Of a DNA stretch of 64,000 bases, positions 17,213 to 56,922 are shown one piece after another. The position numbers were made by a program, and so were the translations under genes. The notes under the pieces are model-generated. The model searched no databases. It was given only the letters and a program-made list of their open reading frames with translations, and was not told the DNA's origin. Source of the DNA: Endocalyx cinctus (lineage: Eukaryota > Ascomycota > Sordariomycetes > Amphisphaeriales > Apiosporaceae); NCBI GenBank assembly GCA_001600455.1, contig BCKC01000008.1:1027345-1091344 (forward strand), read 5' to 3'. Position 1 is the stretch's first letter. Every line of letters starts with the position of its first letter.

Positions 17213-18368
17213 TTAAGCCTCGTTCTCAGGTTCCTTCACGTCGACAACGGCAACGATGACGTCCTCTACGTAGGCAGGAGGGGCCTCTACTTCTTCTTCG
17301 CGGGCCATCAAACCAACTTTCTCATCATCGACGAGCGCTTCGGCGTGAGCGGCCTTAGAACGACGGCCACGGTGGCGCCGGGAGCTAGAAGAGCGGCGGA
17401 CAAGTTTGCGCCATAGGAAGACGATGAAGGTACCAACCATCATGCCGAGACTACAAATCAAATTAGCGAGACGTCACGAATTAGAAAGAAAGGTTGCGGG
17501 GATAAAAAACTTACATGCTAGCGGTGATACCGGCCATGATGCCGATGAGAACAGGCAGGAGGATGTGGGCAGCAACATTCCTAAAGAGATGGCCCCAACG
17601 ATGCTGCTTGTGCATGCCATGTGGGTGAGAGTGGTTTGGTCTCATGGCGTGGCCGCGGAACTTGCCGCAACCATGAGCACGAAGCTTGCCGAATTTCTCC
17701 ATAATCATCTTCTGGTATTCGCAGAACACGGTGGAGCATTCTTCCGTCTTGGTAGGCACCTGTTCCTGTTCCTTGACTTCGACTTCGGCGATCATTAGCT
17801 TGCCGAAGCCGGTCTTGATGAGCTTGATCTCGACGGTCGGGATGCTGTCGACAAACTGGTTACCGACTTCGATGATCTGGAGCTCGAGAAGAACCAACTC
17901 GAGGTCTTCGTCGTCGGTAGTAGCTATGGGCCGGGTCTGCAAGCCGTAGCCGAGAGGTTGGGGCTTCCAGAACGGTCGCACGTTGCCCTTGGAGAGGCGA
18001 TGCTTGGTGTTAGGCACGAGGGCGGCGGTGAGGGTGTTGGTAAAGGGATCGGGGTTAGGGTATAGTTCGTATCCGTTCAACCACAACTTATCAGCCTCGT
18101 TGGAGAGTTCGACGTTGAAGTTTAGATCGAGATGGGTGGGGACCATGTTATCCGCCACCTCGGCATCATGGTTAAGGGAGCATCCGGGGCAGGCCAACTT
18201 AACGCTGGCAGTATCGGCGAACTGAATAATATCGACGTCGACTTCGTGAGGAACGGGAAGTGTGGTGATGATATCGTCGTCAGACATGGGGATGTCGGGA
18301 GGTAGCATAAGTGCATTGGTAGTGGAAGCCGCCAGGCCAGCTGCGGCGATGATTGATGCTAACTGCAT
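17213..18368 (-). CDS. Type I membrane protein of unknown function (DUF7728-like) with PPAY tail
   Basis: Exons are 18368-17515 and 17450-17213 with a 64-nt intron (GTAAGT...TTGTAG), giving 363 residues. An N-terminal signal peptide of about 20 residues is followed by MLPPDIP and a 240-residue extracytoplasmic region with CPGC, LNGYELYPNPDPF and LELQIIEVGN, then Cys-containing helices and a His-rich stretch (HSHPHGMHKQH). One transmembrane segment (about 269-298) follows, then an Arg-rich stop-transfer stretch and a cytosolic tail of about 60 residues with a PPAY motif at 342-345. PPxY motifs bind WW domains of Rsp5/NEDD4 ubiquitin ligases. The overall pattern matches a family widespread in Pezizomycotina that I recall as DUF7728; the number is from memory. 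Function is unknown; an adaptor or receptor-like role is inference. Confidence 0.85.
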
Positions 18369-20378
18369 ATTGTCGGAGGGGTTGGTTTTGGAGTCCGCTC
18401 TCTCTCAATACTTAGATGAAGGTTTAGTTTCTCATCAATCAATGATGTAGTTGATGATTTGTAGGATTTAGTAATAAAAACCGGTAAATAATAAAAAGTT
18501 GAGATGTTTCCGGATTGCTCGGGTTAAAGAAAGAGAGAAGAAAAAAGAGAGGGAAACTAGAAAGGAGAAGGATTTGGTGGTGTGATGATGAGAGGCTTAC
18601 ACAGTAACCCAACGTAGAAGTGATGTTGTTGTTTGTTGTTGGGGGCAAAAGGGTGACGAAGAGTACACCCTGTTTCCCCTCTATTTGGTAGAATTGATTG
18701 GTCAAGTGGACAAAGCGGCTCATTGGGGCTTCTTGCTTGTTGTACGTTACAGTACTTGATGCACTGTAATAATATCCACAGCAGCCCACAGTAGTACTAC
18801 TTAGGCAGCTAGGCAGCTAGGTACGTACTACTCTGCGGTGCGCATACCCGTGGACATGACCAACCTACAGGGAATAGCCTATTGCCTACTTAGGTAATAC
18901 GCTATACTACCGTACATATACTGTAGCTGTGTACTGCGCAGTAGGTACATTCTGTAGGTACCATACTACACTATCGTTTCAGGGGTTTAATAACTCCATT
19001 TAGGGTACATACGTGCAGTACCTCAAGGTTATTCCTCTATTTCTTTATCTGCATTATCACGTCATATTACATACTACCTGAAGTATTTACATATATTATC
19101 GATATAGCTTCAAATAACTACAAATGAAGTTTCGCTTTGCTTTGCCATTTATCAAACCTGCTTAAATATACTACACCATCAGATAGTTGATGACTGTTGA
19201 CGTTGACCTTAACTTTAGTAATGCGACGTTGCTAATACACGATATAAATGGGATATAAAATAGGCAACCCACCTCAAGGATCGGCGACCGCGGCGACCGA
19301 ATCCCTCGGTTCAAACCTTTTTCACTCTTCGGATTTAATTATTTGAGTATTGCGAATGTTCATGTTAAGGGAGATCAGTATGGCGAGAGACTTTCTATTA
19401 AACCATGATCTACCCTATTGTATATATGATTATTAACTTTCATTAATAGGGGCGAGTAGTGTGGTTGCTACTTATATAACAAGCTCGCCGACCCTCGAGT
19501 TCATTCGCTCGTCAACGTCGAGATGACTAGATTTTGACGAGAAACCGAGATTTATGTTGATGCAATTGGGCTATTCAGATCACTTGATTGACTTGATCGC
19601 GCAATATTCTAACCTAACGATATTCACGATACCTCTACCGGGAACCCCAGTGTTTTTTTTTTTTTTAGTCCACCTATCGTGTCTCCTACGCAACGATGTT
19701 TACCATCATTTAGTAAGTGAAAAAACAGACTATAAAGATGACAGACACTATTATATCATACGAGGGGGGAGCTAGTCCAAGAACTCGTCAAGTTGTCCAT
19801 ATTCGATCGCTGTCTACCAGTAGATTTCCTATCCGATTTGGAATAATATTGTCAGCGTGGGACCTGATTATAAATTAGCTACCTACGGCGACGAATGGAT
19901 CGAGATGAAGATGTCGACGAAGAATGAGTAGCCTGGACGGATTTGACATTCGGAATTGTATAGTAGTGCGGCAACTCCGTCGTCCTTGTCGACTTCGATA
20001 AGTCCTTGGTCGCCGGGGCCTGGTGCGTTGAAGGATTACCTAAATGAGTTAGAGAGATCACGCCCCCAGGCCCCCTATACATCACCGTCCCCGAACAAGC
20101 CTGTTCCGACGGCGACGGAAAGAAGAATATTGGACAGTCCCTAGTGAGAGCGCCCTCTTGGCTACTCTCAAAGCCGGGGGTACCAAAGAGATCACGTTAT
20201 TACATCCGGGCTGCGATGAGAATAAACAGAGTTGTTCGTTCGTTATTCTTTTTTTTTCCTCTTATTTTTTTTTTCTAAAGTGATTTATACAAACGAATAG
20301 AAATCCGACATTCTATATAGAGAGCATTAATATAACACGGATATAAAAAAGAAAATCCCAGCTCAAGCAAAGTACCGA
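18369..20378. other. 2-kb AT-rich spacer with TAGGTAC/CAGCTAGG motif clusters
   Basis: Between about 18795 and 18980 the motifs CTTAGGCAGCTAGGCAGCTAGGTACGTA and further TAGGTA copies recur within 200 bases. The frame around 19956-20144 (TTG-initiated, 62 codons, ending before 20145) has fairly coding-like third positions but no Met or recognised homologue, so it may be a gene relic. A T run sits at about 19651-19664, and T-rich stretches near 20250-20275 precede the next gene. Confidence 0.45.
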
Positions 20379-55316: not shown

Positions 55317-56922
55317 ATGTTGAGCAACGTGGTCCTCGCGGGTTTACTCCCCCTCATCATGGCGAAGCCTATTGGGTGAGTCCCCTTCTTTCTCCCCCCC
55401 TTTCTCTCTTAGGAAGCTGAATAGGAGCAACTACGTTTCCTTTCCTCTATCTAACCTGCAATACAGGCAACGCAGCAACGAAGCCGCACACGGTCTCGCC
55501 TTTCGCAACCAAACCTCTCACATGAACAACGTCCAGAGAAGCGAAGGGGCCAAGCACGCAAAGAGGCAAGACGAAAGCGAGCCCTGGTTTCCCGATTTCC
55601 CTTCCCCCGTGGAGCCCATCCCCATCGAAACCCCCTCGGTCATGTCGTTCCCGGTCAGCACCATATTCCCCACCACCTCCCTCGAGATCGAATCCGGTAC
55701 CGTCAGCCTCTTCATGCCGACCTCGACCTCCGTCGCCATGTCCATGGTAACCGTCCACCCCACCACGGCACCCCCGATGATGGGAGGAGGAGGAGGTGCA
55801 GCCGGCGGTGAGTCGGCCACGATGTGCTACCAGGCGTGCTCGAGCAAGTGCCAAGTAGCCGATATCGGCTTCGACGTCTCGCAGTGCAAGTCCTCGTGCT
55901 CCGAATCCTGCGGCATGTCCTCCTCGAGCGGCGTCATCATCGGGGACGGGAAGAAGAAGAACAAGCGACACGACGGTGATGCTACGATCTTCCCGGCCGA
56001 CGGCCCCTCGGTCAGCGCCGGCGAGATGACCTACGAGTCCTGCATGAGCGGCTGCGCCTCCGAGTACCAGAGCGCCGATATCGCCGGCGTTATTGCCCAG
56101 GGCTCGGATGCCTGCGAGTCTAAGTGCGCGGCTTACTCCAAGTCTGGCGTTACCATCACCGGAAAGAGACACTACCCTGAAGAAGAAGAAAAAGGCGACA
56201 CTGACATGGACCTTGACGCCCCTACCGTTGGTGTTGCCGCTGGCGAGATGACCTACGAATCGTGCATGAGCGGCTGTTCCTCTGATTACCAAGACGCGGA
56301 CTTGGCCGGCCACATGGGACAAGGCTCTAGTTCTTGTGAGGCCAAGTGCGCGGCTTACTCCAAGTCTGGCGTCACCGTCACCGGGAAGCGACACTACCCC
56401 GAAGAAGAGAGCGACGCCGACATGGACCTCGACACCCCCACCGCCGGCGTCGCCGCCGGAGAGATGACCTACGAATCCTGCATGAGCGGCTGCTCCTCCG
56501 ACTACCAAGACGCGGACCTAGCCGGCCACATCGGCCAGGGCTCCAGCTCGTGCGAAGCCAAGTGCTCCTCGTACGCCAAATCGGGGGCGGCCGTTGTCGG
56601 CAAGAAGGAGAAGAAGAGGGACGTCAAGATTCCCATCCCCGTCCCCACGAGCACCCGCTCGGTCTCGATCACCTTACCTACGCCCACGAAACCCGCTTTC
56701 TCCTCCTCTTCGTCTTTGTTCGCGGTCCCGACCGGTACCCCTTGCGACTGCGCCGGCCAGTGCGCCGCCAACGCCGCTTTCCTCGACGTGCCTCTGCTGG
56801 TCAAGTGCATCGAGGAGTGTCTGAAGACCTGCGTCGCGAAGTCGATCACTACTTCTAAGATCAGCATCTCACGCTTATCTACCCCGACCCCGATCCCGAC
56901 CCCGAGCGGCCCTGTTTTTTAA
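55317..56922 (+). CDS. Secreted Kex2-type repeat precursor with five cysteine modules
   Basis: Exons are 55317-55375 and 55467-56922 with a 91-nt intron (GTGAGT, CTAAC branch, ACAG), giving 504 residues. The first exon supplies a signal peptide (LSNVVLAGLLPLIMA). Five KR sites (after residues 53, 187, 254, 328, 404) divide the chain so that every cysteine module sits alone in its segment. Modules 2-4 are close repeats (unit 74 and 72 residues, core GEMTYESCMSGC...CEAKC) of form CX3C-X19-CX3C: C212/216/236/240, C286/290/310/314 and C358/362/382/386. Modules 1 (C140-C168) and 5 (C446-C475) are 6-Cys variants (CX3CX3C...CX3CX3C; CXCX3C...CX3CX3C). The inter-module linkers are acidic, Pro/Ser/Thr-rich and begin HYPEEE after the two TGKR sites. 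CX3C...CX3C pairs recall helical-hairpin disulfide peptides. No DUF3328/UstY enzyme adjoins. Function of the released peptides is unknown. Confidence 0.82.
56026..56604. repeat. Three tandem cysteine-module repeats within the precursor
   Basis: The Met codon of GEMTYESC recurs at 56026, 56248 and 56464, a spacing of 222 and 216 bases. Copies 2 and 3 are closer to each other than to copy 1, pointing to a recent in-frame duplication. Confidence 0.85.

Follow-up and report, generated by a model that had tools for sequence, protein, structure and literature searches.

Analysis of the window, a 64,000-nucleotide stretch of the Endocalyx cinctus genome, placed a two-exon gene for a protein of 504 amino acids at positions 55317-56922; this gene and all its features lie on the plus strand. 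Exon 1 (55317-55375) carries the start codon and the signal peptide (residues 1-19 and part of residue 20). It is followed by a 91-nt GT-AG intron (55376-55466, GTGAGT...TACAG) and by exon 2 (55467-56922), which encodes the propeptide, the cysteine modules, the linkers and the stop codon. Four more in-frame acceptors would also keep the frame open; the acceptor adopted above is the one that yields the residue numbering of the preliminary description of this locus. That description had assigned the signal peptide to a separate small first exon. Our call, made by eye and by homology, agrees with it: a leader of the exon-1 type is common to 9 of 15 family proteins including the window's own (8 of 14 relatives). 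Leader homology backs the signal exon, without fixing the exact acceptor. In all nine proteins whose model includes a signal peptide (9/9), residues 51-75 hold the first [KR]R. The models of the other six (P0001, P0002, P0003, P0009, P0011 and P0014; 6/15) have no recognisable signal peptide, and a small first exon was perhaps overlooked there.

Two protein searches, within their sensitivity, gave a single copy of the gene in its own genome (44.8 Mb, 15 contigs). Two weak own-genome matches to P0006 (L007, E 0.087; L008, E 0.54) were discarded after a six-frame pattern scan found no Cys module in them. Of eight open frames from the window that were compared with Pfam, six gave a family (DUF3433, BTB, protein kinase, DUF7728, HAD hydrolase and acetyl-CoA transporter) and two gave none. 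The DUF7728 protein (17514-18404, minus strand, E 2.7e-44) shows a hydrophobic N-terminus in translation.

The 504-residue product contains the five KR pairs reported before, with last residues 53, 187, 254, 328 and 404. The first of them, the propeptide site (55561-55566), is followed by a Pro/Ser/Thr-rich stretch of low model confidence (residues 54-139, 55567-55824) and by module 0, a 6-Cys hairpin (residues 140-168, 55825-55911). After KR187 (55963-55968) come three 4-Cys hairpins, namely module 1 (residues 212-240, 56041-56127), module 2 (residues 286-314, 56263-56349) and module 3 (residues 358-386, 56479-56565). KR254 (56164-56169) and KR328 (56386-56391) stand at +13 from the last Cys of modules 1 and 2, and behind module 3 the sequence KKEKKR (56602-56619) combines a KK at +13 with KR404. 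Module 4, a CXC-type 6-Cys hairpin (residues 446-475, 56743-56832), ends the series. The 24 Cys are divided 0/6/4/4/4/6 among the six KR-bounded segments, in accordance with the modules of 6, 4, 4, 4 and 6 Cys originally described. Both outer modules do have six Cys each, but as a pair of like modules they do not hold, since their patterns differ (CX3CX3C-X11-CX3CX3C in module 0, CXCX3C-X14-CX3CX3C in module 4). Modules 1-3 share the pattern CX3C-X19-CX3C. They had been called near-identical, which they are not: identity is 65-84% over 49 residues (17, 11 and 8 differences). Among these three repeats dN/dS is 0.04-0.16 at a dS of 0.9-2.0, which is near saturation; the low dN/dS means that the protein sequence is under constraint.

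AlphaFold2 modelled the whole chain as five separate helix pairs joined by linkers of pLDDT <50 (pTM 0.20), and no continuous fold spanning the modules of the window protein was predicted, as had been anticipated. A two-helix hairpin is therefore the predicted fold of the modules. This prediction came from the whole chain; a 4-Cys module modelled alone gave a poor result (pLDDT 54), and even in the whole-chain model the tips of modules 1-3 stay at pLDDT <50. Plant alpha-hairpinins were among the weak structural matches. Ribosomal L11 also matched the module-only model, and we took these matches as chance. In sequence, the best PDB matches of module 0 were luffin P1 (two entries) and pumpkin C2 at a non-significant E of 0.21-0.29, and profile searches returned EcAMP1 at E 5.2 and a scorpion toxin at E 6. 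The best PDB matches of module 4 were RING proteins (E 0.42-0.66), which we attribute to chance.

Three protein searches yielded at least 14 relatives: ten from Xylaria, one from Nemania, one from Xylariomycetidae sp. FL0641 and two without an organism name. The named ones are hypothetical proteins in NCBI. Judged by these relatives alone, the window would be placed in Xylariales. The initial and the profile search were limited in scoring to the 7996 candidates with the most words in common; the second of them added no new relative and missed P0005, and the region search added eight and missed P0003 and P0006. With these limits, the census of 14 is incomplete, and a restriction to Xylariales may be too narrow. 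In Pfam, none of the 15 proteins had a match at E <= 0.001 (best, TIL at 0.0014), and the window protein gave nothing significant against Pfam, NCBIfam or PDB sequences. The TIL domain (PF01826) was seen below its cut-off in 6 of 15 proteins at E <= 1 (best 0.0014) and, at E <= 10, in all but one of the 17 6-Cys modules (best 0.0017); module 0 of the window reached 10.2 of the required 24.5 bits. The weak TIL (E 0.0014, 0.0017) and C_tripleX (0.0055) matches were taken as effects of Cys composition. P0004 and P0012 bear the UniRef name of WSC domain proteins, a name we did not adopt, as there was no WSC match at E <= 1 in the 15 proteins. The literature matches listed (open-access; KEX2-processed repeat proteins, helical hairpins, twin-CX3C proteins and multi-hydrophobins) did not name the module family in their titles or abstract openings.

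A pattern scan found 78 modules in the 15 proteins. Fifty have 29 residues and four Cys, 17 have 29 residues and six Cys, four have 28 residues, four have 20 residues, and three are of the CXC type (two in P0006 and module 4 of the window protein). The 20-residue cores (CX3C-X10-CX3C), nine residues under the usual length, are the third modules of P0001, P0004, P0012 and P0013; both CX3C pairs are kept in them and the dibasic pair is still at +13. Many Xylaria members carry long YxVKTPAVxP-type repeats ahead of the lead module, and these are not found in the shorter pre-module stretch of the window protein. In the 67 modules of 29 residues, the inner Cys (core positions 9 and 21) occur together in 17 and are both missing in 50, and a single one was never seen (0). 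This both-or-neither distribution would fit a bonded pair, although it represents few independent events because lead modules account for 15 of the 17 and repeat modules of P0006 for the other two. In the order 1-29, 5-25, 9-21, the inferred disulfide pairing, the sums of the paired positions are constant, the expectation for an antiparallel hairpin. The tip of the hairpin is strongly conserved: in 52 repeat modules of 29 residues, A12 is present in 52/52, Q10 and G21 in 50 each, A15 in 49, and D17 and S19 in 42 each.

The dibasic pairs occupy a fixed place. Behind internal repeat modules a dibasic lies 13-14 residues past the last Cys in 46 of 47 cases (26 KR/RR, 18 KK, 2 RK; 1 none). Dibasics fill 53 of 126 offset-13/14 positions versus 32 of 2703 other linker positions, an enrichment whose p-value is no independent probability, the modules being related by descent. 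The 13 terminal repeat modules have KK in nine cases, RK in one and none in one, and two end there (in P0005 and P0008 the chain stops 13 residues past the last Cys of the last module, the place of the dibasic elsewhere). KR/RR at +13/+14 is thus found in 26/47 internal versus 0/13 terminal modules (p = 0.00025 if they were independent, but the modules are homologous). The 63 inter-module linkers of the 15 proteins comprise 35 with KR/RR, 19 with KK/RK only and nine without a dibasic. KR sites between the modules of homologues had been expected to be conserved, which is true in part, KR/RR being absent from 28 of 63 linkers. Fourteen of the 15 proteins have at least one linker without KR/RR, and the window protein alone (1/15) has KR/RR in every one. 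On the sequences compared, the family-wide feature is a dibasic behind each repeat module, not five KR-bounded peptides.

In the window protein itself, KR stands in all four inter-module linkers. The preliminary description had judged this match of sites to modules hard to explain by chance. Four KRs placed randomly would fall one per inter-module gap with a probability of 0.0025, which bears out the judgement. Cys-fixed shuffles with KR in all four gaps (0/50,000) add less to it; since a shuffle contains a mean of 0.33 KR, this control mainly shows an excess of KR over composition.

Published accounts of kexin sites differ over Lys at P1. In a survey of KEX2-processed repeat proteins (KEPs), KK is described as cut 'to a lesser extent' (PMC6339444); KR, KK, RK or RR are counted as KEP sites in PMC7329392, and KR, RR or KK in PMC9769878. 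Lys at P1 scores 0 in a yeast Kex2 matrix (PMC2515848), and P1 is 'almost exclusively' Arg according to the review PMC8528282. By the yeast matrix of PMC2515848, P4 is good at KR53 (H, 0.73) and KR187 (K, 0.72), and poor at KR254 (T, 0.17), KR328 (T, 0.17) and KR404 (E, 0.05). Among cut Kex2 sites there is an excess of acidic residues at P1', P2' and P4' (PMC2515848). The residues after the five KR are, in order, QDES, HDGD, HYPE, HYPE and DVKI, so that each site has at least one acidic P1', P2' or P4', two of them with the P4' Glu alone. The same source notes for Pry proteins that a conserved KR is not necessarily cut. A P-domain, the mark of kexin-type proteases, was matched on another contig of the same genome, which suggests a putative kexin gene.

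We then compared the protein with the definitions of KEPs (PMC7329392, PMC6339444). PMC7329392 asks for three or more repeats in tandem, each 8-100 aa long, between KR, KK, RK or RR. In the window protein, three units end in KR and have lengths of 67, 74 and 76 aa, and in a repeat test similar, not identical, to the published script, 40-aa seeds from 75 start positions were each found three times at >=60% identity. Its hydrophobic N-terminus provides the signal peptide that belongs to the definition, and the repeats make up 29% of the protein (3 x 49 of 504), where Le Marquer sets a minimum of 15%. By published criteria, as far as we reproduced them, the window protein is a KEP.

We consider it probable that the window protein is indeed processed as a KEP and that its products are folded mini-proteins. 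The chain would enter the ER via its signal peptide, and each module would form an antiparallel helix pair whose Cys staples follow the ladder order 1-29, 5-25, with or without 9-21. In the Golgi, kexin would take off the propeptide after KR53 and, in the window's fungus, cut the unstructured linkers after KR187, 254, 328 and 404. The basic ends would be removed by a carboxypeptidase of the KEX1 type, and four or five hairpins would be secreted. Release by kexin is likely in this fungus and uncertain in the relatives, because no other member of the 15 matches the window protein in having KR/RR throughout its linkers. The earlier proposal of a polyprotein for secreted disulfide-stabilised mini-proteins thus stands as far as a secreted precursor, Cys hairpins, dibasics at a fixed place and the four KR linkers of the window protein are concerned. 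It does not extend to the whole family, in which only 35 of 63 linkers have KR/RR. Family-wide release is not claimed here, mainly because Arg is strict at the propeptide site and the inter-module sites are looser, with KR or KK.

The same looseness would be accounted for if the propeptide alone were removed and the hairpins remained joined in a single multivalent protein, secreted or wall-associated and comparable to polyhydrophobins, with the basic pair as the charged end of a module. Multi-hydrophobins are indeed fungal chains of Cys modules (PMC12375992). The 19 of 63 linkers with KK/RK alone and the nine without a dibasic agree with such a chain, as do the long Pro-rich stretches ahead of modules in the relatives and the persistence of KK in 9 of 13 terminal modules, where there is nothing to separate (in P0012 it stands at the very C-terminus). 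An uncut chain would explain neither why each of the four inter-module linkers of the window protein has KR nor why Arg at P1 of the +13/+14 site is restricted to internal modules (26/47 versus 0/13), and we regard it as possible yet rather improbable. In an intermediate arrangement, kexin would cut behind the repeat modules, and the Pro-rich stretch with the first 6-Cys module would be a separate part, mostly joined to the next module in relatives. The lead-to-repeat linkers speak for it: KR/RR sets off the lead module in 2 of 15 proteins (5 have KK/RK, 8 none) versus 30 of 45 repeat-repeat linkers. The two exceptions, P0006 and the window protein itself, speak against this arrangement, which we hold to be unlikely. 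Finally, a kexin-site repeat precursor could be that of a dikaritin-like RiPP, with modules further modified by UstYa-type enzymes. The genome gave 48 UstYa (PF11807) matches, some of which may be exons of one gene, and dikaritin-like clusters may be numerous in it. All 48 fall outside the 64-kb window, the closest one on this contig at a distance of about 0.3 Mb, and no such modifying enzyme was found among the eight window open frames scanned. The products would also be 65-73 aa long and carry two Cys pairs, unlike short linear cores. We hold a RiPP precursor to be very improbable.

Under the preferred reading, that of a kexin-cut precursor of mini-proteins, the hairpins would most likely be extracellular ligands or binders acting via the conserved tip, whose conservation suggests binding to one shared partner. 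The trimmed 4-Cys peptides of the window are acidic by computation (net charge -7, -11 and -10; pI 4.05-4.22), and the C-terminal peptide is basic (+3, pI 8.64). The acidity argues against simple membrane lysis; it is no family rule, as the charges of the relatives' modules range from -7 to +2. Trypsin-inhibitor alpha-hairpinins have Arg in the Cys2-Cys3 loop (PMC7191063). Modules 1-3 of the window have neither Arg nor Lys in this loop, which would argue against trypsin inhibition by them; in many relatives core position 22 is Lys or Arg.

Several known systems resemble parts of this architecture. Ole e 6-type pollen proteins and the twin-CX3C small Tims, which are mitochondrial, are CX3C helix pairs as well, but they are single-domain, unlike the window chain; module 0 matched Ole e 6 (PF09253) at E 0.26, under the cut-off. 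Trihydrophobins and pentahydrophobins likewise place several Cys-rich modules and linkers in one fungal chain (PMC12375992). Hydrophobin families gave no match in the family searches of the 15 proteins. Hydrophobins also have a different Cys pattern.

With KEPs such as Rep1, Ece1, alpha-pheromone and dikaritin precursors, the window protein shares the signal peptide, at least three similar repeats between dibasic sites and the prospect of several products. The repeat units surveyed in PMC6339444 range from 3 to 352 aa and include units >51 aa, with the 9-24 aa class generally most abundant in Dikarya. Unlike these proteins, the window protein has repeats that are Cys-paired helix hairpins, and its chain holds two other types of hairpin besides. 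The word 'disulfide' is absent from the main texts of three KEP papers, and 'cysteine' occurs there only in PMC6339444, four times, in passages about pheromones. Folded, disulfide-stapled mini-proteins as products would widen the KEP class, best known for short peptides (pheromones, dikaritins), and an uncharacterised family would gain a clear modular logic.

A further parallel is with plants. Of the alpha-hairpinin motifs (PMC11591084), the 4C form (CX3CX4-20CX3C) fits modules 1-3 and the 6C form (CX3CX3CX4-20CX3CX3C) fits module 0; module 4 fits neither. Plant alpha-hairpinin and vicilin-buried peptide precursors have a signal peptide and 2-12 modules each (PMC7191063). The differences are the fungal host, dibasic instead of plant-protease sites, a strongly conserved loop where Cys are sometimes the sole conserved residues of plant alpha-hairpinins (PMC11591084), and the lack of a significant sequence match between these and the window protein. 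The open-access literature searched had nothing on alpha-hairpinin together with Kex2. We tentatively propose, as a real possibility short of a probable one, that Xylariales independently evolved a counterpart of the plant modular precursors: a kexin-cut polyprotein of several disulfide-laddered hairpins, whose conserved tip would bind one shared extracellular target, whose inner disulfides would be switched on or off as a pair, and whose cleavage strength would be tuned by KR versus KK. Such a protein would be a fungal parallel to the precursors of plant seed defence peptides, and the KR/KK differences among its relatives would offer a natural test of how the type of dibasic controls processing.
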